Shown: positions 12,513-34,148 of the stretch, one piece after another
Layout: each line of letters opens with the position of its first letter
How positions within the stretch are numbered: position 1 is the first letter of the stretch
From: Thermococcus thioreducens
Lineage (GTDB): Archaea > Methanobacteriota_B > Thermococci > Thermococcales > Thermococcaceae
Assembly (NCBI RefSeq): GCF_002214545.1
Contig: NZ_CP015105.1
Span: 1,302,001-1,366,000, forward strand
DNA: 64,000 nucleotides
Direction: 5' to 3'
Translations under genes and position numbers: made by a program
The notes under the pieces: model-generated
What the model saw: only the letters and a program-made list of their open reading frames with translations
Database searches by the model: none
What the model was told of the DNA's origin: nothing

Positions 12513-13037
12513 TCAACCTCCTGCCTGGAGGAGAAGTCCCGGAAGCTGGGGCTGCCTCTGGCCGAGCTCCTGATCGAGCATGAATATGACCTGCGGGCTG
12601 TCCTTGGCGAACTTGAGCTTGTCCACTATCTTCTTGACGTTTGCCTCCTCCTCGACCTGCTCGTTGATGAACCACTCAAGGAACGCCCTCGTTGAGTAGT
12701 CCTTCTCCTCCTCGGCTAAAGCCGCTAACTCGTGTATGTGTCTGGTTATGAACTGCTCATGCTCGTAGGCGGCCTCAAAGGCAGCAAGCGGTGAGTCCCA
12801 CTCCTTGGGCGGTTCCTGGACGGCCTTGAGCTCGACCCTGCCGTTCCTGTCGTAGATGTAGTTGTAGAACCTCAGAACATGGCCAAGCTCCTCTTCAGCT
12901 TGTGCCTTCATCCAGTTCGCAAATCCCTCCAGGTTCATGTCCTCGAAGTAGGCCGCCATCGAAAAGTACAGGTAGGCCGAATAAAGCTCCCTGTTCAGCT
13001 GTTCGTTGAGGGCCTTCAGCATCCTCTCGCTCAGCAT
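12513..13037 (-). CDS. Ferritin
   Basis: A 174-residue ferritin close to the family's usual length, with a four-helix fold and ferroxidase ligands in the expected places: Glu in [12 protein letters not shown]-x-x-H in EEELGH, Glu in the third helix, and a Glu in FINEQVEEE. It oxidises and stores iron as a 24-mer. ATG 13037 is preferred to GTG 13043 because GGAGGT then sits about 7 nt upstream. It lies next to sufCBD on the same strand but with its own gap, linking iron storage with cluster assembly. Confidence 0.93.
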
Positions 13038-13086
13038 CTCCACAACCTCCGGGTATAGTTACACCCGGTTACTTTAAAAGCTTTCC

Positions 13087-24615: not shown

Positions 24616-24640
24616 TTTTGGTCAGGAAAGGCTTTTTATG
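24616..24640 (+). promoter_or_regulatory. Flavodiiron gene promoter with upstream TTTTGGTCaGGAAA element
   Basis: TTTTGGTCAGGAAA (24616-24629) is followed 3 nt later by a TATA box, TTTTTATG (24633-24640). The same element with one base change and the same 3-nt gap to the TATA box occurs before rubrerythrin (27620-27633). Its place just upstream of the BRE/TATA fits an activator or a shared regulator site. Confidence 0.5.
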
Positions 24641-24670
24641 CTTCCGCACCAAATAGGTTCGGTGGTGAAA

Positions 24671-25900
24671 ATGCCCGAGATATGGGTCGAAAAGATACTC
24701 GATGAACCCGAACTCTACATTCTGAGGATTGACGATGAGAGGATAAAGTACTTTGAGGCCACCTGGGACATCCCCGAGGGGATAACCTACAACGCTTACC
24801 TCATGAAGACAGGCGATGCGGTTGTTCTCTTCGACGCCTGGAAGAAGGACTACACCGAAGAGTTCCTTGAGACCCTGCGGAAGCTCGTTGATCCGAAGGA
24901 GATAACCCACATTATAATCCACCACACGGAGCCCGACCACAGCGGGGCAATTCCAGCGGTTCTTGAGGCCAACGGCTACAGGGCTCAGCTCATAGGAACG
25001 ACCTTTGCCAAGCGCTTTATGGAAGGCTTCTACGGTGAAAAAGTGGTGGAGAACTTCTACACCATAAAGGACGGCGAGGAAAGGAACATAGGTGGAAAGA
25101 CCTTCCGCTTCATAACCGTTCCCTGGCTACACTGGCCGGATACAATGATAACCTATGTGGTCGAGGATAAGCTCATATTCAGCTGCGACGCCGGGGGCGG
25201 CTACGGAATTCCGGAGGCAATAGACGACAGCGATGAGGAGGTCGTGAAGAGGTACCTGCCCCACGTGACCAAGTACATAGTCACCGTCATAGGCCACTAC
25301 CACAAGTACATCGTCCAGAACATCAAGAAGCTCAAAAGCCTTGGAATAGTTGAAGAGGCCAGGATGATACTCCCGGGGCACGGCTTAATCTGGCGTAAGA
25401 ATCCGATGAGGATATTCGAGCACTATGAGCGCGTTGGGGCCGGAATTCCTGAGAAAGACAAGATTCTGGTAATCTACGACTCCATGTACGGATTCGTTGA
25501 GAGGAGAATGGAGGTCGTCATAGACGAGCTCAGGAAGCACGGGAAGAAGCCCGTCGTCTACAGGTTCACCGACAAGGAAGCTCCAGCTGTAAGCGACATT
25601 CTCGGGGAAGTCCCTGACAGCGAGGCAATAATCATCGGTGCCTCTACCTACGAGGCCGAGATACACCCGAGGATACGTTACACCCTCTATGAGATACTGG
25701 ACAAGGCCAACTACGAGAAGCCCGTGCTTATCGTTGGGGCCTTTGGATGGGCCGGCGTTGCTGGCAAGAAGATAGAGACCCTGATAACGAGGAGCAAGTT
25801 CGACCTCGTCGATGTAGTTGAGAGCCGCGGCATGCCGAGGTCAGAGGACGAGGAAAAACTCAGAGAGGGCGTCAGAAAACTCGTGGCCTGGGCAGGCTGA
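24671..25900 (+). CDS. Flavodiiron protein (FprA-family A-type flavoprotein)
   Basis: A 409-residue protein: an N-terminal metallo-beta-lactamase-like di-iron domain (about 1-250) with ligands His85, Glu87, Asp89 and His90 (HTEPDH), His154 and Asp173, spaced as in the family, and a later His in LPGHG. A flavodoxin domain (about 258-409) begins VIYDSMYG. Flavodiiron proteins reduce O2 to water, and/or NO, taking electrons from rubredoxin. ATG 24671 with GGTGGTGAAA is chosen over the longer frame, which would cover the promoter. It starts the oxygen-defence island. Confidence 0.94.
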   Translation: MPEIWVEKILDEPELYILRIDDERIKYFEATWDIPEGITYNAYLMKTGDAVVLFDAWKKDYTEEFLETLRKLVDPKEITHIIIHHTEPDHSGAIPAVLEANGYRAQLIGTTFAKRFMEGFYGEKVVENFYTIKDGEERNIGGKTFRFITVPWLHWPDTMITYVVEDKLIFSCDAGGGYGIPEAIDDSDEEVVKRYLPHVTKYIVTVIGHYHKYIVQNIKKLKSLGIVEEARMILPGHGLIWRKNPMRIFEHYERVGAGIPEKDKILVIYDSMYGFVERRMEVVIDELRKHGKKPVVYRFTDKEAPAVSDILGEVPDSEAIIIGASTYEAEIHPRIRYTLYEILDKANYEKPVLIVGAFGWAGVAGKKIETLITRSKFDLVDVVESRGMPRSEDEEKLREGVRKLVAWAG

Positions 25901-25901
25901 T

Positions 25902-25924
25902 CCTTCCCTTCCCTTCCCTTCCCT
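25902..25924. repeat. Short CCCTT tandem repeat after the flavodiiron gene
   Basis: About four and a half copies of CCTTC/CCCTT lie in the 69-nt gap between the flavodiiron and ferritin-like genes, directly before a TATTTAAATAC promoter. A pyrimidine-rich tract in this place might aid termination of the upstream gene; this is inference. It has no coding role. Confidence 0.6.
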
Positions 25925-25940
25925 CATATTTAAATACTGA

Positions 25941-25956
25941 ACTGACATAACTGACA
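25941..25956 (+). promoter_or_regulatory. Direct repeat ACTGACA-TA-ACTGACA downstream of a TATA box
   Basis: Two 7-bp direct repeats with 9-bp period lie between the TATTTAAATAC TATA-like box (about 25927-25937) and the ferritin-like gene's start at 25969, with a third partial ACTGA at 25936. The position suggests a repressor or transcription-start element for this gene and the NROR gene behind it. Confidence 0.4.
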
Positions 25957-25968
25957 GTGGTGGTATAT

Positions 25969-26508
25969 ATGGAGGACATTTTTGAAAAACTTGCTGGGCT
26001 GTCGCCCAGAGAAATACTGGGCTACGCCCTGGCCTCTGAACAGGAGGCAAAGGAGTTCTATGAGCACCTCGCGTCAAAGAGCGGGGCGCTCCTTGGAGAG
26101 TTTTTTAAGGACCTCGCCAAGGCCGAGGAGAACCACAAGAGAATACTCCTCAAGCTGTACGAGGAGCTCTTTGGAGACACGGAATACCCCGTCCCCGAGG
26201 GCATACCCCTTGCCGAGACGTCTGTAAAGGTAGATACCGTCGCGAACCTCATAGAGGCCATGAGGGTTGCCCTGGAGAACGAGAAAAACGCAGAGAGGAT
26301 ATACTCGCACCTCGCCGAAACGCTCCCCGAACATGGGGGCATATTCAAGTTCCTGGCGGCCCAGGAAAGGGCGCACTACGCAGCGATAAGGAGCCATACA
26401 GAGTACCTTGAGGACGTGACGCAGGGACAGCAGGAGTACGTGAACGCACCGATAGAATTCTTCGGTGCCCAGCTGGAGCTCTACCTGGGACCACGCACCA
26501 GGCGGTGA
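25969..26508 (+). CDS. Ferritin-like / rubrerythrin-family di-iron protein
   Basis: A 179-residue four-helix protein with two E-x-x-H motifs (AEENHKR and AQERAHY) and matching helix-1 and helix-3 glutamates (SEQEAKEFY, ENEKNAERIY), the bacterioferritin/rubrerythrin di-iron set. It lacks a C-terminal rubredoxin domain. It might act as a peroxidase or iron oxidase; its partner is unknown. ATG 25969 follows GGTGGTATAT. It lies 9 nt upstream of the NAD(P)H:rubredoxin oxidoreductase gene, suggesting it receives electrons from that enzyme via rubredoxin. Confidence 0.85.
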   Translation: MEDIFEKLAGLSPREILGYALASEQEAKEFYEHLASKSGALLGEFFKDLAKAEENHKRILLKLYEELFGDTEYPVPEGIPLAETSVKVDTVANLIEAMRVALENEKNAERIYSHLAETLPEHGGIFKFLAAQERAHYAAIRSHTEYLEDVTQGQQEYVNAPIEFFGAQLELYLGPRTRR

Positions 26509-26517
26509 GGTGACAGC

Positions 26518-27600
26518 GTGAGGGTCGTTATAGTCGGCAACGGGCCGGGGGGCATTGAGCTCGCCAAGAACCTGAGCAGAGAATTCGACGTGACCATAGT
26601 CGAGAGGGAAAACCTGCCCCACTACTCCAGGCCCATGCTGAGCCACTACATAGCAGGCTTTCTGCCGGAGGAAAAGCTCTTCCCATATTCCCTGGACTGG
26701 TACGAGAAGAATGGGATAAACCTGCTCCTTGGAGCTGAGGCAAAGCTGATCGACAGGCTCAGGAAGGTTCTCGTAACCGATAAGGGCGAGGTGCCCTACG
26801 ACGCCCTCGTCATAGCGGCCGGGGCGAGGGCCAGAGAACCCTCGATTCCAGGAAGGGAGCACATCCTAACACTTAGGACCCTCGAAGATGCAAAGCTGAT
26901 AAAAGAGCGCCTTGAGGACGAGGGCGAGGTGACGATCCTCGGCGGTGGCTTCATAGCGCTTGAACTGGCGGGAAACCTCGCCAAAGCCGGGTACACCGTC
27001 AGGGTGGTCCACCGGGGGGAGGCCCTTCTCGGCCTGGACCGTGAGCTGAGCGAACGCATCAGGGAGGAGCTTGAAGGGGCTGGGGTCGAGTTCCATCTGA
27101 AGTCGCAGGCCATAAGCGCCGACGAAGACGGCCTGAACACCGAAACGGGGTACATTCCGGGGAAGCTGAAGGTCTGCGCCTTCGGAATAGTGCCGAACAG
27201 GGAGCTGGCAGTTAAAAGCGGCATCCACGCCGGCAGGGGAATACTGGTCGACGATCACCTCAGAACCTCCGCGAGAGACGTCTACGCCATAGGGGACTGC
27301 GCTGAACTGGGAGGGATCATCGGAGGAACCGCCAAAACGGCGGTGGAACAGGCGAAGGTTCTCGCAAGAATACTGGCCGGGGAGGAAGCCAGCTACGTCC
27401 CATTCAGGTCGGCGTTCTTCAAGTTCGCGGACTTCAGCGTTGCAGTTATTGGACAGATCAGGGGGCGGGGTGAATGGCTCGATGAAAAGGCCAGGGTCTT
27501 TTACGATGGAGAGAGGGCCATCGGAGCCGTCGTCCTCGGTGACCTCAGGAAAGCCTTAAGGCTCGAAAAAATTATCAGAGAAGGACTACCTCTTGACTGA
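26518..27600 (+). CDS. NAD(P)H:rubredoxin oxidoreductase
   Basis: A 360-residue two-dinucleotide-binding flavoprotein: FAD site [10 protein letters not shown] (about residues 7-16), NAD(P)H site [10 protein letters not shown] (about 142-151), a second FAD segment [10 protein letters not shown] (about 256-265), and CAGA-type loops. It matches Thermococcales NROR in length and in lacking the redox disulfide of thioredoxin reductases. GTG 26518 follows GAGGTGACA. It passes electrons from NAD(P)H to rubredoxin for superoxide reductase, rubrerythrin and the flavodiiron protein, all encoded within 4 kb. Confidence 0.9.
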
Positions 27601-27619
27601 AGTGCACATCTCATCAAAC

Positions 27620-27645
27620 TTTTGGTCTGGAAAATCGTTATATAC
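27620..27645 (+). promoter_or_regulatory. Rubrerythrin promoter with upstream TTTTGGTCtGGAAA element
   Basis: TTTTGGTCTGGAAA (27620-27633), then 3 nt, then a GTTATATAC TATA box (27637-27645). Thirteen of fourteen bases match the element before the flavodiiron gene (24616-24629) and the gap to the TATA box is identical. Confidence 0.5.
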
Positions 27646-27691
27646 TCCTGGCGCGGAAGTATTAATGCAACAACGTTTGTAGGTGGTAGGC

Positions 27692-28207
27692 ATGGCAGTG
27701 AAAAGGAAAATGACCCGGAAGTTTCTGGAGGATGCCTTTGCCGGCGAAAGCATGGCACACATGAGGTACCTGATTTTTGCCGAGCAGGCCGAGAAGGAGG
27801 GATTCCCCAACATAGCCAAGCTCTTCAGGGCCATCGCCCACGCTGAGTTTGTCCACGCTAAAAACCATTTCATAGCCCTTGAGCACCTGGGCAAGACCCC
27901 GGAGAACCTGCAGGCGGGTATAGACGGTGAGACCTATGAGGTCGAGGAGATGTACCCGGTCTTCAAGAACACCGCCGAGTTCCAGGGCGAGAAGGACGCG
28001 GTGAGGACGACCCACTACGCCCTTGAGGCAGAAAAGATACACGCCGAGCTTTACGCCAAGGCCAAGGAGCTCGCAGAGAACGGAAAGGACATCGAGATAA
28101 AGAAGGTCTACATCTGTCCAGTGTGTGGATACACCGCCGTTGATGAGGCCCCCGAGTACTGCCCGATCTGTGGGGCCCCGAGAGACAAGTTCGTGGTCTT
28201 TGAGTGA
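27692..28207 (+). CDS. Rubrerythrin
   Basis: A 171-residue rubrerythrin: an N-terminal di-iron four-helix domain (Glu in FAGESMAHMRY, E-x-x-H-type AEFVHAKNH, later EAEKIHAE) and a C-terminal rubredoxin-like [Fe(SCys)4] domain with CPVCG and CPICG (about 140-171). It reduces H2O2 to water with electrons from rubredoxin and NROR. ATG 27692 has GGTGGTAGGC upstream. It follows the NROR gene after a 91-nt gap with its own promoter and precedes rubredoxin and superoxide reductase. Confidence 0.95.
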   Translation: MAVKRKMTRKFLEDAFAGESMAHMRYLIFAEQAEKEGFPNIAKLFRAIAHAEFVHAKNHFIALEHLGKTPENLQAGIDGETYEVEEMYPVFKNTAEFQGEKDAVRTTHYALEAEKIHAELYAKAKELAENGKDIEIKKVYICPVCGYTAVDEAPEYCPICGAPRDKFVVFE

Positions 28208-28229
28208 ACTTTTCGTTTTTTCATTTCTC
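28208..28229 (+). terminator. T-rich likely terminator after rubrerythrin
   Basis: Directly after the rubrerythrin stop the sequence is ACTTTTCGTTTTTTCATTTCT. Oligo-T runs without hairpins end transcription in Thermococcales. The next promoter (rubredoxin) begins right behind it. Confidence 0.45.
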
Positions 28230-28230
28230 A

Positions 28231-28273
28231 GGTTTGAGGCGCAAACCTTATAAGGTCGAACTAATAACATTAG
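28231..28273 (+). promoter_or_regulatory. Rubredoxin-superoxide reductase promoter with two dyads
   Basis: GGTTTG-AGGCG-CAAACC (28231-28247) is a perfect 6+5+6 inverted repeat ending directly at the TATA box TTATAAG (28248-28254). CTAAT-AAC-ATTAG (28261-28273) is a perfect 5+3+5 dyad between TATA and the RBS. The first would suit an activator, the second a repressor; both are inferred from position. Confidence 0.45.
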
Positions 28274-28286
28274 GGTGGTGAAAGAA

Positions 28287-28448
28287 ATGGCCAAATGGAA
28301 ATGTATAGTATGCGGATACATCTACGATGAGGATGAGGGCGACCCCGACACGGGCATCGAGCCCGGAACCAAGTTTGAGGACCTTCCCGAAGACTGGGTC
28401 TGCCCGCTCTGCGGTGCACCAAAGGAAATGTTTGAAAAGATAGAGTGA
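28287..28448 (+). CDS. Rubredoxin
   Basis: A 53-residue rubredoxin, easy to overlook because of its size. Fe ligands are Cys6, Cys9, Cys39 and Cys42 in CIVCGY and CPLCG, with [11 protein letters not shown] and LPEDWVCP as in hyperthermophile rubredoxins. ATG 28287 follows GGTGGTGAAAGAA. It carries electrons from NROR to superoxide reductase and rubrerythrin. The superoxide reductase gene starts 10 nt downstream, so the two are one transcript. Confidence 0.96.
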
Positions 28449-28458
28449 GGTGATGGGG

Positions 28459-28806
28459 ATGATAAGCGGAACCATAAGGAGTGGAGACTGGAAGGGGGAG
28501 AAGCACGTCCCCGTTATAGAGTACGAGAAGGAGGGCGACCTCGTTAAGGTGGAAGTCCAGGTCGGCAAGGAGATACCGCACCCCAACACGCCAGAGCACC
28601 ACATCGCCTGGATCGAGCTCTACTTCCACCCCGAGGGGGAGAACTTCCCGATCCTCGTCGGAAGGGTCGCCTTCACAAACCACGGTGACCCGCTGACCGA
28701 GCCGAGGGCGGTCTTCTTCTTCAGAACTGCCAAGAAAGGCAAGCTCTACGCCCTGAGCTACTGCAACATACACGGCCTCTGGGAGAACGAGGTCACGCTT
28801 GAGTGA
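28459..28806 (+). CDS. sorA: Superoxide reductase (neelaredoxin type)
   Basis: A 115-residue class II superoxide reductase. The iron centre is readable: Glu14 and His16 (EKHVPVIE), His41 and His47 (HPNTPEHH), Cys102 and His105 (YCNIHG). It reduces superoxide to H2O2 without making O2, using rubredoxin. It is about nine residues shorter than the Pyrococcus furiosus protein as I recall it, in a loop before the Cys ligand. ATG 28459 is preferred to two upstream in-frame starts since AGGTGAT then sits 4-5 nt away. Confidence 0.95.
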   Translation: MISGTIRSGDWKGEKHVPVIEYEKEGDLVKVEVQVGKEIPHPNTPEHHIAWIELYFHPEGENFPILVGRVAFTNHGDPLTEPRAVFFFRTAKKGKLYALSYCNIHGLWENEVTLE

Positions 28807-30273: not shown

Positions 30274-30798
30274 ATGGTTCCACCAGAGTTAGACGAGGGG
30301 CTTCCCCTCGAAAAGGTCAAGGACTTCTCCCTTGAGGAGCTCCTCGGGATGGCCATAAAGGCTGAGATAGGAGCAAGGAAATTCTACCAGAGCCTTGCAG
30401 AGAGGATAGAGGTTGAGTCCTTAAAGGAAAAGATTGAGTGGCTCGCCGGCGAGGAGGGCAAGCACGAGGCGCTCCTGAGAAAGATGTACGAGAGCATGTT
30501 CCCCGGAAAGGGGGTATTCTTCCCGAAGGAGCACATAGGGCCCGAACTGAAGCCCGTGGCAAGGGAGCTTCATAGTGCTCAAGACATCATAGAACTCATA
30601 CGCTGGGCTATGCGTGCCGAGGAGATAGCGGCTCACTTCTACGAGGAAATCGAAAAAATCGTGGAGACCGATGACAGGAAAAGGCTCATGCGCTACCTCA
30701 GCGACATGGAGAAGGGTCACTATTACACCCTACGCGCCGAATACGAGCTCCTCCTCGACTGGGAGATGTACAGCCAGATGATGCACGTCGGACCGTAG
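30274..30798 (+). CDS. Ferritin-like / rubrerythrin-family di-iron protein
   Basis: A 174-residue four-helix protein with both carboxylate-bridge motifs: GEEGKHEALL and DMEKGHYYTL as E-x-x-H, with helix-1 KAEIGARKFY and helix-3 RAEEIAAHFY glutamates. No rubredoxin domain. It is the third gene of the DUF59-DUF59 operon (ATG 30274, GGAGG upstream). Its similarity in layout to the proteins at 25969, 33614 and 39639 suggests a paralogous family; whether each is a peroxidase or an iron oxidase is unknown. Confidence 0.84.
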   Translation: MVPPELDEGLPLEKVKDFSLEELLGMAIKAEIGARKFYQSLAERIEVESLKEKIEWLAGEEGKHEALLRKMYESMFPGKGVFFPKEHIGPELKPVARELHSAQDIIELIRWAMRAEEIAAHFYEEIEKIVETDDRKRLMRYLSDMEKGHYYTLRAEYELLLDWEMYSQMMHVGP

Positions 30799-30861: not shown

Positions 30862-31305
30862 TTACTCCCTGTACTTTGCTATCAGCTCCGCAAGAATCCT
30901 GTGGTGCTCCTTCTCGTTTTCAATAAGTGCCTCGGCGAGGCCTTTAAACAGGGGGTGGGTCATCTTCTCGGCCATCCTCTGGTAGGTCTCTATCATGTCC
31001 TTTTCAATCTCCAGATGCATCTCGGCAAAGCGCTTGACCAGGGCCTTCTGCTCCGGTACAAGTTCGACCTCCTTGACCTCCTCTATGGGCCCTTCTCCCG
31101 CGAGCTTCTCCAGCTCCTTCTGGGCCTCCAGAATGGCCTTCATCAGGTGCTTGTGTATTATCGTGTCTACGGCTATCCTGCCGACGACTTCCTCAACCTT
31201 GGTGTACTTCAGACCCTGCCCTCTTATGAGGCCGAGACCGTCCGTGTAGCTCGCGGCGGCCTTCTTTTCGGTCTCGTAGGCCCTCTTAACAAGTGGTTCA
31301 ATCAT
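30862..31305 (-). CDS. Ferritin-like di-iron protein
   Basis: A 147-residue helical protein with di-iron ligand candidates spread over four helices: ETEKKAAASY, VDTIIHKHLM, HLEIEKDMIETY and ENEKEHHRIL (E-x-x-H). It is more divergent than the neighbouring rubrerythrin-like proteins; the helix-2 site is D/H rather than E-x-x-H. ATG 31305 has GGTGATGTG upstream. Its promoter contains CGTTATTAAGG, a TATA variant shared with the next genes. Substrate unknown. Confidence 0.8.
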   Translation of the reverse strand: MIEPLVKRAYETEKKAAASYTDGLGLIRGQGLKYTKVEEVVGRIAVDTIIHKHLMKAILEAQKELEKLAGEGPIEEVKEVELVPEQKALVKRFAEMHLEIEKDMIETYQRMAEKMTHPLFKGLAEALIENEKEHHRILAELIAKYRE

Positions 31306-31431
31306 GCACATCACCAGAACTATATGAACGTCGAACCTTAATAACGTTTTTCATTGAGCAAAAGGGTGCATCAACCCACTGCTTAGTGCACGAGAATCGA
31401 AAGGAAGCGAGGGAAAAGAGGAATGAAGAGG

Positions 31432-31734
31432 TCACAGTTCGACCTTTATGCCGGTCTCTTCCTCAACTTCCTCGAAGCCTTCCTTCATGTACTTTGCTAA
31501 CTCCTTATCAACTTCAAATAGCGCCGCCAGGAACTCACCGAAGTGCTCCTTCTCCTCGTTGGCGACGTCGTAGAAGATGTGCTTTATCCTTTCGTCCTCT
31601 ATGAGCTCCGCCAGCTGTTCGTAGAAGCTTATAGCGTCGAGCTCGGCCTCGATGGCCCAGCGTAAGGCCTGGGCTATTTCCCTCTTTGAGAGGGGCTTTT
31701 CCCTCCCCAGGAGGTAGGGCTTTTCAGCGAGCAT
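31432..31734 (-). CDS. Stand-alone encapsulated-ferritin-like (EncFtn) protein
   Basis: A 100-residue protein with two long helices and EncFtn-type motifs: AELDAISFYEQLAE (Glu) and NEEKEHFGEF (E-x-x-H), then GFEEVEEETGI. From memory this closely resembles the N-terminal EncFtn-like segment of the Pyrococcus furiosus encapsulin fusion (PF1192). Here it ends after 100 residues and no encapsulin shell gene is adjacent. Half-ferritins of this type form dimeric di-iron sites and need a shell to store iron. The TATA is GGTTATTAACC (about 31764-31774). Confidence 0.82.
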   Translation of the reverse strand: MLAEKPYLLGREKPLSKREIAQALRWAIEAELDAISFYEQLAELIEDERIKHIFYDVANEEKEHFGEFLAALFEVDKELAKYMKEGFEEVEEETGIKVEL

Positions 31735-31776
31735 GGTACCACCACAGGGTAATACGTCCGGAGGTTAATAACCCTT

Positions 31777-32328
31777 TCACCTCAGGAACTTCGAGACGAA
31801 GGGGCTCTCTCCAGGCTTGGTTCTTCTGAAGTGGCCGCTCGGCTTTCCTGTAAGGAGCTCCTCAAACCATGCCTCGTGCTCTATCTCCTCGTGGAGTATT
31901 GCTAGAGCCAGGTCGTACGTCCTCGGGTCTTTCCCAAAGGTGTACTTGCATATCTCGGTGTAAACGCCGACTGCACAGCGCTCTGCCTCAAGGAGAACCT
32001 TGAGGATGTTCTCAACGGTCGGCTCCTCGGGGAGGTAAGCGTCGCGGCACCAGGCCATCTTGGAGAAGTCAACGATGTCCCTCGGGAGCTCACCGCCAAG
32101 CTCGTATATCCTAGGCACCAGCGCCTCAAAGTGGTTCCTGTCCTCAAGGCGGGCATCCTCGATTATCTCCTTTATCGTCTCGCCCTCCATGCCTGCCGCA
32201 TGGTTCCTCAGAACCGTGTAGTAGTAATAGGTCGTAAACTCCGCGGCTGCGGCCCTTACCAACATATCCAGAAGTTTTTCCACGTCTATTCCGGCCTTCT
32301 CAACAAGTCTTCGGTTGTGTTCAGACAT
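31777..32328 (-). CDS. Dps-like (DPSL / thioferritin) protein
   Basis: A 183-residue ferritin-superfamily protein with a bacterioferritin-like di-iron set: Glu in [14 protein letters not shown]-x-x-H in [10 protein letters not shown], Glu in LEAERCAVG, and E-x-x-H in EEIEHEAW. The Cys pair of DPSL proteins is visible in WCRDAY and ERCAVG, with another in TEICKY. DPSL dodecamers oxidise iron with H2O2 and protect DNA. It is divergent from the Fur-family gene across a 105-nt gap holding a palindrome. Comparable linkage with Fur exists in Pyrococcus furiosus. Confidence 0.9.
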
Positions 32329-32433: not shown

Positions 32434-32811
32434 ATGTGGAAGAAAAAAGCCATTAAGAGGCTCAAAGAGCATAACTACAAGCTCACCCCCCAGAGGCTCA
32501 AACTGGTGGAGATACTCGACAGAATCGGGGGCGAACACCCGTCCCTCAAAGAGGTTCTCGATGAAATCAGGGAGGAATTTCCGACCGTGAGCTTCTCCAC
32601 CCTGTATTCCAACGTCCTAACGCTGAAAGAGCTTGGCCTGCTCGAACTCTTCTCCCTGGACGGGGAGACGAGAGTCGAACTGAACACCGAGCCACATATT
32701 AACCTGATAAGCGAGGGAGAAGTCGTCGACCTCAACGACCCTGAGATAATAGAAAGAATCCGGGAGAAGATCGGCCGAGACGTTAAGCTCGTCAACGTTT
32801 TGGTGAAATGA
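32434..32811 (+). CDS. Fur-family transcriptional regulator
   Basis: A 125-residue Fur-family protein: an N-terminal winged helix with KLTPQRLKLVEILD (about 16-29) and VSFSTLYSNVLTL recognition helix (about 52-64), then a short dimerisation domain (DGETRVEL, DVKLVNVLV). It has no cysteine at all, so the structural CxxC zinc site of many Fur/PerR proteins is absent, and only His87 lies near the usual metal site. ATG 32434 is about 25 nt from the TATA box, so the mRNA is probably leaderless. It likely controls the divergent DPSL gene and perhaps other genes of the island. Confidence 0.88.
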   Translation: MWKKKAIKRLKEHNYKLTPQRLKLVEILDRIGGEHPSLKEVLDEIREEFPTVSFSTLYSNVLTLKELGLLELFSLDGETRVELNTEPHINLISEGEVVDLNDPEIIERIREKIGRDVKLVNVLVK

Positions 32812-32932: not shown

Positions 32933-33633
32933 ATGAAAGTTTTAGTTCTCTCTACCTTGCACCAGTTCCACGGCCACGTGGATTACTACACATACGAGCA
33001 CCTTTCAAACATAATCGAGGCATTTTCACCGGACATCCTCGCCGTTGAGCTGAGGCCTTCAGACGTTGATGGCAGGGTGCCACAGACAATAAAGCAGGAG
33101 TACCAGAAAAGCGTTTATCCCCTGATTGATAAACTGAAGTGCGAGGTTATCCCCCTCGAACCGCCCGAGCCGAAGTATTCCGAACTCATAGGGATGGCAA
33201 AGAGATCAATGAAGAACCTGAAGGAGAGCAATCCCCAAGCACTGGAACACTTTAAACTCTACGTGGAAGCTCTATACGGCGTGCTTTTCAACTGGTGGGG
33301 TTCGGTTCTCGATGTCAACTCTCACGAGACGGACAGGCATTTCGAGATCAAAAGGAACTACCAGAATTCGCTGTTCGGCAAAGATGAGAAAGCTGCATGG
33401 GAAAAGTGGAATGGATATTTTTGGAACAGATCCTCAAGGCAAATGAGGGGAAGACGGACGGTAAGATGCTGGTCCTGGTTGGAGTGGAGCATTCGTACTG
33501 GCTGCGCAGGGAGCTCCGTAAAAGGCACGACGTCCAGCTACTGGAAGCCCCTGAAGTTTTGCCAGATATCATTGGAGTCCGAGGTTCACGCCCTGGCAGT
33601 GGAGAGCAGGAATTCAGTCCACCTCAAGGCTGA
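32933..33633 (+). pseudogene. Frameshifted gene, possibly TraB/TIKI-like
   Basis: The first frame runs from ATG 32933 to about 33421 (VLSTLHQFHGHVDYY, then ILAVELRPSDVDG). The reading then continues in another frame (FLEQILKANEGK, MLVLVGVEHSYWLRRELRKR, then LLEAPEVLPDI) to TGA 33633. One T missing from the T5 tract at 33417-33421 explains the break; six T would rejoin the frames. The two halves recall TraB/TIKI proteins only weakly (an ELRP segment and a late GxxHxxWL). Whether this is a real inactivation, a sequencing error or a slippage site is open. TATA: CTTTTATAG (32888-32896). Confidence 0.75.
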
Positions 33634-34093
33634 AGTCCTGGTAGTCCATCCAGATGCCGGTCTTCATCACCGAGTCGTATTGAGCTTTCAGGAGTTCGTA
33701 GTGGGCCTTCTCCACCCTCGCCAGCTCTTCAAAGACCCTCCTCACCGACTCGCTTTCCGCTTCCCTCGCGGCCTTCTCATAGAACTCCCATGTCAGCTTT
33801 TCCTGCTCCATGCCTATCCTGACAGCATCCACTTCGCTAAGGTCTTCCTCATCCACACTGACGAGGAGCCTCTCCAGCATGGATCCGTCAACGACGGGGG
33901 GTTTGCATTCATCTATTAGTTTCTCGACGAACTTCTCCTCAAAGATGCCCCAGTGTTCCGCCTCTTCCCTTGCCAGAAAGAGGAACATCCTCTTGGCCCT
34001 CTCATCGCTGGCCTTTCTTGCCAGGCGTATGTAGAAGTTGAGCTCCGCCTTTTCAACCTCAAGGGCTAGAGCTAAAGCTTCAAGCTCGTTCAT
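33614..34093 (-). CDS. Ferritin-like / rubrerythrin-family di-iron protein
   Basis: A 159-residue four-helix protein: EVEKAELNFY and MEQEKLTWEFY (Glu), AREEAEHWGIF and ARVEKAHYELL (E-x-x-H). Same two-repeat layout as the products at 25969, 30274 and 39639; no rubredoxin domain. ATG 34093 has GGTGGTATT upstream; a longer frame adds only ten residues over the promoter. It converges with the frameshifted gene, overlapping by 20 nt, and is divergent from the GNAT gene. Confidence 0.84.
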   Translation of the reverse strand: MNELEALALALEVEKAELNFYIRLARKASDERAKRMFLFLAREEAEHWGIFEEKFVEKLIDECKPPVVDGSMLERLLVSVDEEDLSEVDAVRIGMEQEKLTWEFYEKAAREAESESVRRVFEELARVEKAHYELLKAQYDSVMKTGIWMDYQDFSLEVD

Positions 34094-34148
34094 AATACCA
34101 CCAAAAAACTTTAGGAACTCCACACATAATAACCTTTGGTGGACAGTT

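Follow-up and report, generated by a model that had tools for sequence, protein, structure and literature searches.

A stand-alone EncFtn-like ferritin gene at the fusion-encapsulin locus of Thermococcus thioreducens, with probable loss of the shell

Results

The EncFtn locus and its neighbourhood

The window, as we call the whole stretch of DNA analysed here (64,000 nucleotides of the Thermococcus thioreducens genome), carries on its reverse strand a complete open reading frame of 100 amino acids, starting with ATG at 31734 and ending with TGA at 31434-31432. The features relevant to it are:

12513..13043, reverse strand: classical ferritin (24-mer type), an independent iron store ~19 kb from EncFtn (PF00210, 164 bits)
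24638..28806, forward strand: oxidative-stress genes of the same neighbourhood (Pfam and translation read by eye)
30274..30798, forward strand: ferritin-like orthologue of P. furiosus PF1190 (2fzf; E 3.6e-84)
30862..31314, reverse strand: rubrerythrin-domain protein (Rbr3), next gene downstream of EncFtn (PF02915; synteny)
31315..31431, reverse strand: gap downstream of the EncFtn stop, the expected place of a shell domain; no shell relic
31432..31734, reverse strand: predicted stand-alone EncFtn-like ferroxidase, 100 aa (Pfam, PDB, AlphaFold, Foldseek, residue tally, ligand numbers mapped on PMC11202242)
31738-31743, reverse strand: GGTGGT, resembling a ribosome-binding site (read by eye)
31763..31778, reverse strand: promoter-like element GAAAGGGTTATTAACC (BRE/TATA-like), ~30 nt before the ATG (read by eye; putative function)
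31777..32328, reverse strand: DPSL (Dps-like 12-mer mini-ferritin), 183 aa (relative of 7stw, E 1.5e-110; PF00210)
32434..32811, forward strand: Fur/PerR-type regulator, divergent from DPSL-EncFtn (PF01475, E 4e-22; position matches PF1195, PMC3401498)
33614..34123, reverse strand: probable counterpart of archaeoferritin (AFR, PF1196), after Fur (synteny; PF02915; PMC3401498)

This gene order agrees with that of the P. furiosus cluster, in which AFR, Dps and Fur occur together (PMC3401498), and in P. furiosus the fusion encapsulin PF1192 lies at the corresponding locus, likewise accompanied by DPSL, Fur and other ferritin-like genes. The original prediction had pointed to a DPSL neighbour as in Pyrococcus, which the 7stw relationship and the gene order bear out. 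The genes at 24638..28806 encode a flavodiiron-type protein, a rubrerythrin-like protein, an NAD(P)H-rubredoxin-type oxidoreductase, a rubrerythrin and a superoxide reductase, with the rubrerythrins and superoxide reductase assigned by Pfam and the other two named by eye. The rubrerythrin-domain protein at 30862-31314 (reverse strand) matches no solved structure at E<0.01. In many genomes its gene comes after the shell or the EncFtn gene, with an Rbr3-type gene behind the shell in 9/10 fused loci, and it may be linked functionally to EncFtn. On the forward strand, an unassigned gene at 32933-33633 is split over two frames near 33400 and lies in one frame in two relatives (L065 and L098); the split represents either a frameshift mutation or a sequencing error.

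The promoter-like element sits in the 42-base gap between EncFtn and DPSL, and a similar one is conserved in front of many orthologues, fused and stand-alone alike. We had considered GTTATTAAC, before the EncFtn gene, as a possible SurR site, a reading that was dropped because the conserved element resembles a BRE/TATA promoter. Downstream, the next gene lies on the same strand and starts ~117 nt past the EncFtn stop. Local alignment of this ~118-nt gap to two shell genes gave no shell relic, as 27/200 and 151/200 shuffled sequences, respectively, scored equally well.

An EncFtn-like half-ferritin with a complete ligand set

The 100-aa protein matches the EncFtn-like family PF22277 with 30.2 bits (gathering score 27), and among solved structures it comes closest to 5n5e, the EncFtn domain of P. 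furiosus encapsulin (E 1.9e-25), and to 2e0z, the whole encapsulin particle of that species. Identity to the P. furiosus ferritin domain (PF1192/PFC_05175) is ~50% over the full length. An AlphaFold model of the single chain, built with 12 relatives (pLDDT 89.9), places helices at residues 17-44, 48-75 and 77-94, that is, two main helices in antiparallel arrangement and a short third one, the layout of EncFtn-like half-ferritins. When this model was submitted to Foldseek, 5n5e ranked first (TM 0.80-0.82), followed by other EncFtn proteins including the stand-alone 3k6c. The originally proposed resemblance to the ferritin-like N-terminal segment of the P. furiosus encapsulin is borne out by identity and fold.

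By alignment, the metal ligands are E31, E61 and H64 plus Y38, with D56, E60 and E67 as outer acidic residues. The first three and the tyrosine correspond to E32, E62, H65 and Tyr39 of R. rubrum EncFtn, in which E32, E62 and H65 have been identified as ligands by mutation (PMC11202242); the P. furiosus fusion shares the same set. These positions are near-invariant: in a tally of 151 proteins (124 stand-alone, 27 fused domains), E31, Y38 and E60 are present in 124/124 and 27/27, and E61 and H64 in 123/124 and 27/27. The window gene encodes an EncFtn-like two-helix half-ferritin with a complete ferroxidase ligand set. A rubrerythrin would combine a four-helix di-iron domain with a rubredoxin domain; the present protein has 100 residues, two long helices and no rubredoxin domain. 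Nor does it resemble a fusion encapsulin, whose HK97 shell domain is C-terminal, since the reading frame ends at residue 100. Its C-terminus, EEETGIKVEL, read by eye, contains no known targeting peptide, and the genome holds no Family 1 or 2 shell, so that the protein does not fit encapsulated cargo, recognisable by such a peptide together with an encapsulin gene. It does fit the short, EncFtn-like type with neither shell nor targeting peptide, known as Non-EncFtn or s-FLP.

No Family 1 or Family 2 shell in the genome

That the protein stops after 100 residues with no encapsulin following, as stated in the original prediction, is confirmed by the complete reading frame and the downstream gap devoid of shell sequence. 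Could the shell be encoded elsewhere? The proposed search of the rest of the genome (a single contig of 2,065,932 bases, 99.86% complete) for an HK97-fold encapsulin returned no Family 1 shell with the PF04454 profile, for which positive controls worked, and no Family 2 shell with PF19307. A Thermococcaceae shell profile gave no match at E<=10; this profile had no positive control of its own, whereas PF04454 recovered all 10 known fusions. Among the loci compared, no non-fused one had a shell match by tblastn at E<1, and no plasmid carriage was found. A shell elsewhere in the genome is therefore excluded for Families 1 and 2. The search did return two Family 4 A-domain proteins (PF08967, ENCP4), at 1738221-1738493 (forward strand) and 2048274-2048501 (reverse strand), both ~400 kb or more from EncFtn.

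A frameshift or contig error might have hidden the shell domain, and the apparently frameshifted neighbouring gene at ~32933-33633 could be taken to point that way. However, the ~100-aa form recurs with the same stop position in 75 genomes, and no shell sequence is present in any frame of the window or the genome, for which reason we consider such an error excluded, its probability being practically negligible.

Fused and stand-alone forms are alleles of one locus

An EncFtn gene is present in 74/74 good-quality Thermococcaceae genomes, which places the observation far beyond chance; the nine genomes of the family without a match are all incomplete (<=82%). Across the 85 genomes with the gene, 75 carry the stand-alone form, nearly always 99-106 aa long, and 10 carry a fusion with an open frame of 346-378 codons, the PF04454 shell occurring in exactly these 10. 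Each genome has one copy, apart from a fragmented genome with a partial second piece. Both forms share a common locus order (rubrerythrin-type gene, EncFtn, DPSL, Fur, archaeoferritin-type gene, acetyltransferase). Given the same locus, mutual exclusivity and one copy per genome, the fused and stand-alone forms are alleles of one locus that never occur together. Strong purifying selection acts on the stand-alone gene, with a median dN/dS of 0.07 in 147 pairs. The truncated form, whose conservation was to be checked, is thus the majority allele and anything but the orphan it had been called. Further stand-alone relatives exist in Archaeoglobi, Bathyarchaeota, Methanomassiliicoccales and some bacteria.

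At four loci in three genomes (L003, L006, L009 and L097; G092, G086 and G091), the EncFtn, DPSL and Fur genes share 88-99% identity with the window, against just ~64-72% for the flanking genes, which points to a cassette of three genes recently moved by horizontal transfer or homogenised by gene conversion. A 258-kb IMG/VR contig classed as viral (L215) also carries a stretch resembling EncFtn at 45% identity.

DPSL adjoins the EncFtn gene wherever the locus was read. It is found in 10/10 fused and 31/75 stand-alone genomes (Fisher p 0.0004, with too few independent pairs for a tree-aware test) and, inside the fused clade, in 10/10 fused versus 0/4 stand-alone genomes. In two fused-encapsulin genomes the DPSL gene is broken or partial (L093 and L094; G077 and G080). 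Ferritin as a substitute for the shell was also considered and showed no pattern, being present in 8/10 fused and 53/75 stand-alone genomes.

Evidence for shell loss

In a tree of 66 EncFtn domains (100 columns), the window protein falls into a clade of stand-alone proteins only (16/16, support 100/96). It therefore belongs to an old lineage and is not the product of recent truncation in T. thioreducens. The sister clade comprises the Thermococcaceae and Archaeoglobales fusions, with nested stand-alone proteins from three Thermococcaceae genomes (G079, G002 and G093) and one Thermoplasmata MAG; a fourth genome, G084, groups with G079 in a larger tree. Fusions from Thermoproteota make up an adjacent clade, in which the linker begins in the same way.

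The clearest case is G079, whose stand-alone gene is 90% identical at the DNA level to the EncFtn part of the fused gene in G075, and the DNA beyond the shell realigns at 88%. These two aligned stretches are separated by a 170-nt remnant, downstream of the shortened gene, in which 19 nt of the shell gene (encoding LQEASK) are retained exactly and in collinear position. We estimate the chance of such a match at ~1e-5 or less; a full local alignment of the region is weakly above shuffles (5/500 reach its score), and it is the exact match and its collinearity that make the case. This relic indicates that shell loss has occurred in Thermococcaceae, as seen in this one relative. Alignments revealed no shell relics in G084, G002 or G093.

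Did the ancestor of the window's own clade also lose a shell? A threonine-glycine pair just before the linker, T94-G95, is present in 27/27 fusions of three archaeal groups. In the window's clade T94 is found in 63/66 and G95 in 66/66 proteins, and the pair occurs in 0/12 stand-alone proteins of sister families. Because this tail is common to every fusion and absent from the sister-family proteins, the ancestor of the large all-stand-alone clade probably lost a shell as well, although the tail may instead have a structural role and predate the fusion. Alternatively, no shell ever existed in the window's clade: the stand-alone form would be original, and the fusion would have arisen or arrived in the sister clade only. 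Such an original state would fit the sister families of the class, in which every orthologue found is stand-alone (12, of 93-110 codons) and encapsulins are absent, their single PF04454 match sitting among phage-like genes; the stand-alone relatives in Archaeoglobi and the other lineages named above fit it too. We nonetheless hold this scenario to be somewhat unlikely, in view of the shared T-G tail, the neighbouring Thermoproteota fusions with the same linker start, and the loss documented in G079. Moreover, the EncFtn domains of Thermococcaceae fusions group with the stand-alone clade and not with the Thermoproteota fusions, a grouping that speaks against the straightforward import of a complete fusion gene.

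Two observations concern the shell sequences themselves. The PF04454 match in a sister family (L210, genome G101) appears to be a phage coat protein judging by its neighbours, so that matches to this profile need context. In Archaeoglobus sp. JdFR-37 (L179:4971-5979), EncFtn and shell share a frame with a single TAG stop between them, and the shell frame is broken further on; the gene may be on its way to losing the shell, the stop may be read through, or the sequence may be in error.

Residue changes specific to the stand-alone clade

The window protein has E63, L79, Y82 and V98 where Thermococcaceae fusions have A63, Q79, E82 and T98. E63 and L79 are each found in 66/66 proteins of its clade, and residue 82 is mostly aromatic (tyrosine in 60, tryptophan in 3, histidine in 2, phenylalanine in 1). 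At these positions, the fusions, the recently uncaged forms and the proteins of sister families carry alanine or threonine (63), glutamine or in one case histidine (79), and glutamate or glutamine (82). Residue 63 adjoins the ligand H64; 79 and 82 belong to helix 3, the helix that connects to the shell in the fusions. Stand-alone relatives from bacteria likewise tend to E63 and F82. This pattern may reflect adaptation to the absence of a shell.

Discussion

What would a ferroxidase of the encapsulin type do without its cage? When isolated, EncFtn shows ferroxidase activity but no capacity to mineralise iron, and it has been described as needing the encapsulin to serve as an iron store (PMC5012862); P. 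furiosus EncFtn has been assayed as a ferroxidase, too (PMC11202242). Our preferred reading, to which we assign a probability of about 0.62, is an uncaged encapsulin-type ferroxidase in a Fur-adjacent iron and oxidative-stress cluster, with the shell probably lost at this locus. At the same position, its ancestor would have been fused to the N-terminus of an encapsulin shell, which probably disappeared later. The two-helix protein would assemble into the EncFtn ring of ten, form di-iron sites between subunit pairs and oxidise Fe(II) with O2 or H2O2. Having neither shell nor mineral storage of its own, it should therefore act as an Fe(II)/peroxide scavenger, with Fe(III) passing to DPSL, ferritin or archaeoferritin where such stores exist. 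Four near-complete stand-alone genomes have no detected DPSL, ferritin or archaeoferritin, so hand-off to a separate store is not general; likewise, 44/75 stand-alone genomes lack DPSL, and the idea that DPSL takes the iron was rejected as a general rule. Of the options originally listed, a lost shell and a protein that works alone are compatible rather than exclusive: the former is backed by the G079 relic and, for the window's clade, by the T-G tail, and the latter is suggested by conservation of the gene without a shell.

Other functions deserve consideration. Rubrerythrins, superoxide reductase and a probable rubredoxin reductase nearby, the anaerobic lifestyle of the hosts, and the clade-fixed E63, L79 and Y82 near the active site and on helix 3 would all suit a protein that is chiefly a rubrerythrin-like peroxidase reduced by the rubredoxin system instead of a ferroxidase. 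We think this unlikely, as the protein has no rubredoxin domain, its ligand set is that of EncFtn and unchanged relative to the fused form, and its sequence is nearer EncFtn than any rubrerythrin. That the stand-alone clade gained a new cage-free job or mode of assembly after shell loss, with E63, L79 and aromatic residue 82 forming a new surface for self-assembly or partner docking, is likewise unlikely. Docking onto the DPSL 12-mer or a neighbouring ferritin-like protein, feeding it Fe(III), would agree with the hydrophobic L79 and Y/W/F82 gained on helix 3 in the stand-alone clade only and with a DPSL gene next door in 31 stand-alone and all 10 fused genomes; the many stand-alone genomes without DPSL, including the four near-complete ones without any of the three stores, render it distinctly improbable. 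Very improbable, finally, is loading into another HK97-type protein such as the Family 4 A-domain proteins. Two ENCP4 genes do exist in the genome, yet they are distant, that at 1738221-1738493 lies behind an OsmC-like gene (named by eye), OsmC being a known Family 4 partner (PMC8346489), the EncFtn-like protein has no known targeting peptide, and Family 4 proteins, at ~100 aa, amount to a third of an HK97 protein (PMC8346489).

How does the uncaged ferroxidase compare with known systems? Relative to P. furiosus PF1192, with its similar fold (TM 0.8) and ligands, it lacks the shell domain. Bacterial EncFtn (R. rubrum 5da5, M. xanthus EncB/EncC) is a two-helix half-ferritin as well, with a di-iron dimer interface that we presume for the window protein; unlike it, the latter has no C-terminal targeting peptide and resides in a genome without Family 1 or 2 encapsulin. 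P. furiosus AFR (PF1196; PMC3401498) is ferritin-like, encoded in the same cluster and likewise has no preformed cage, but is a 21-kDa protein with four predicted helices, monomeric without iron, whose counterpart in the window is the separate gene at 33614-34123. The Non-EncFtn or s-FLP group (PMC5012862, PMC11202242), recognised in 2016 (He et al., eLife; PMC5012862), comprises EncFtn-like proteins of ~95-100 aa without targeting peptide or shell, of which N. europaea NE0167 (3k6c), 26% identical to the window protein, has already been crystallised. In contrast to that group, the Thermococcus form has locus and tail in common with fusion encapsulins and is therefore probably secondarily shell-less.

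In the literature searched, which lay mostly outside subscription journals, we found no report on stand-alone EncFtn in Thermococcales, and allelic, apparently repeated shell loss at an EncFtn locus seems unreported there. New with respect to that literature are the uncaged form as the dominant allele of the fusion-encapsulin locus in Thermococcaceae and the shell-loss scar in one species. The DPSL gene goes with every fusion but with only some stand-alone forms. One gene position that holds either a caged or an uncaged version, with sister species differing, amounts to a natural experiment on the purpose of the cage, and species pairs such as G075 and G079 make that question testable.
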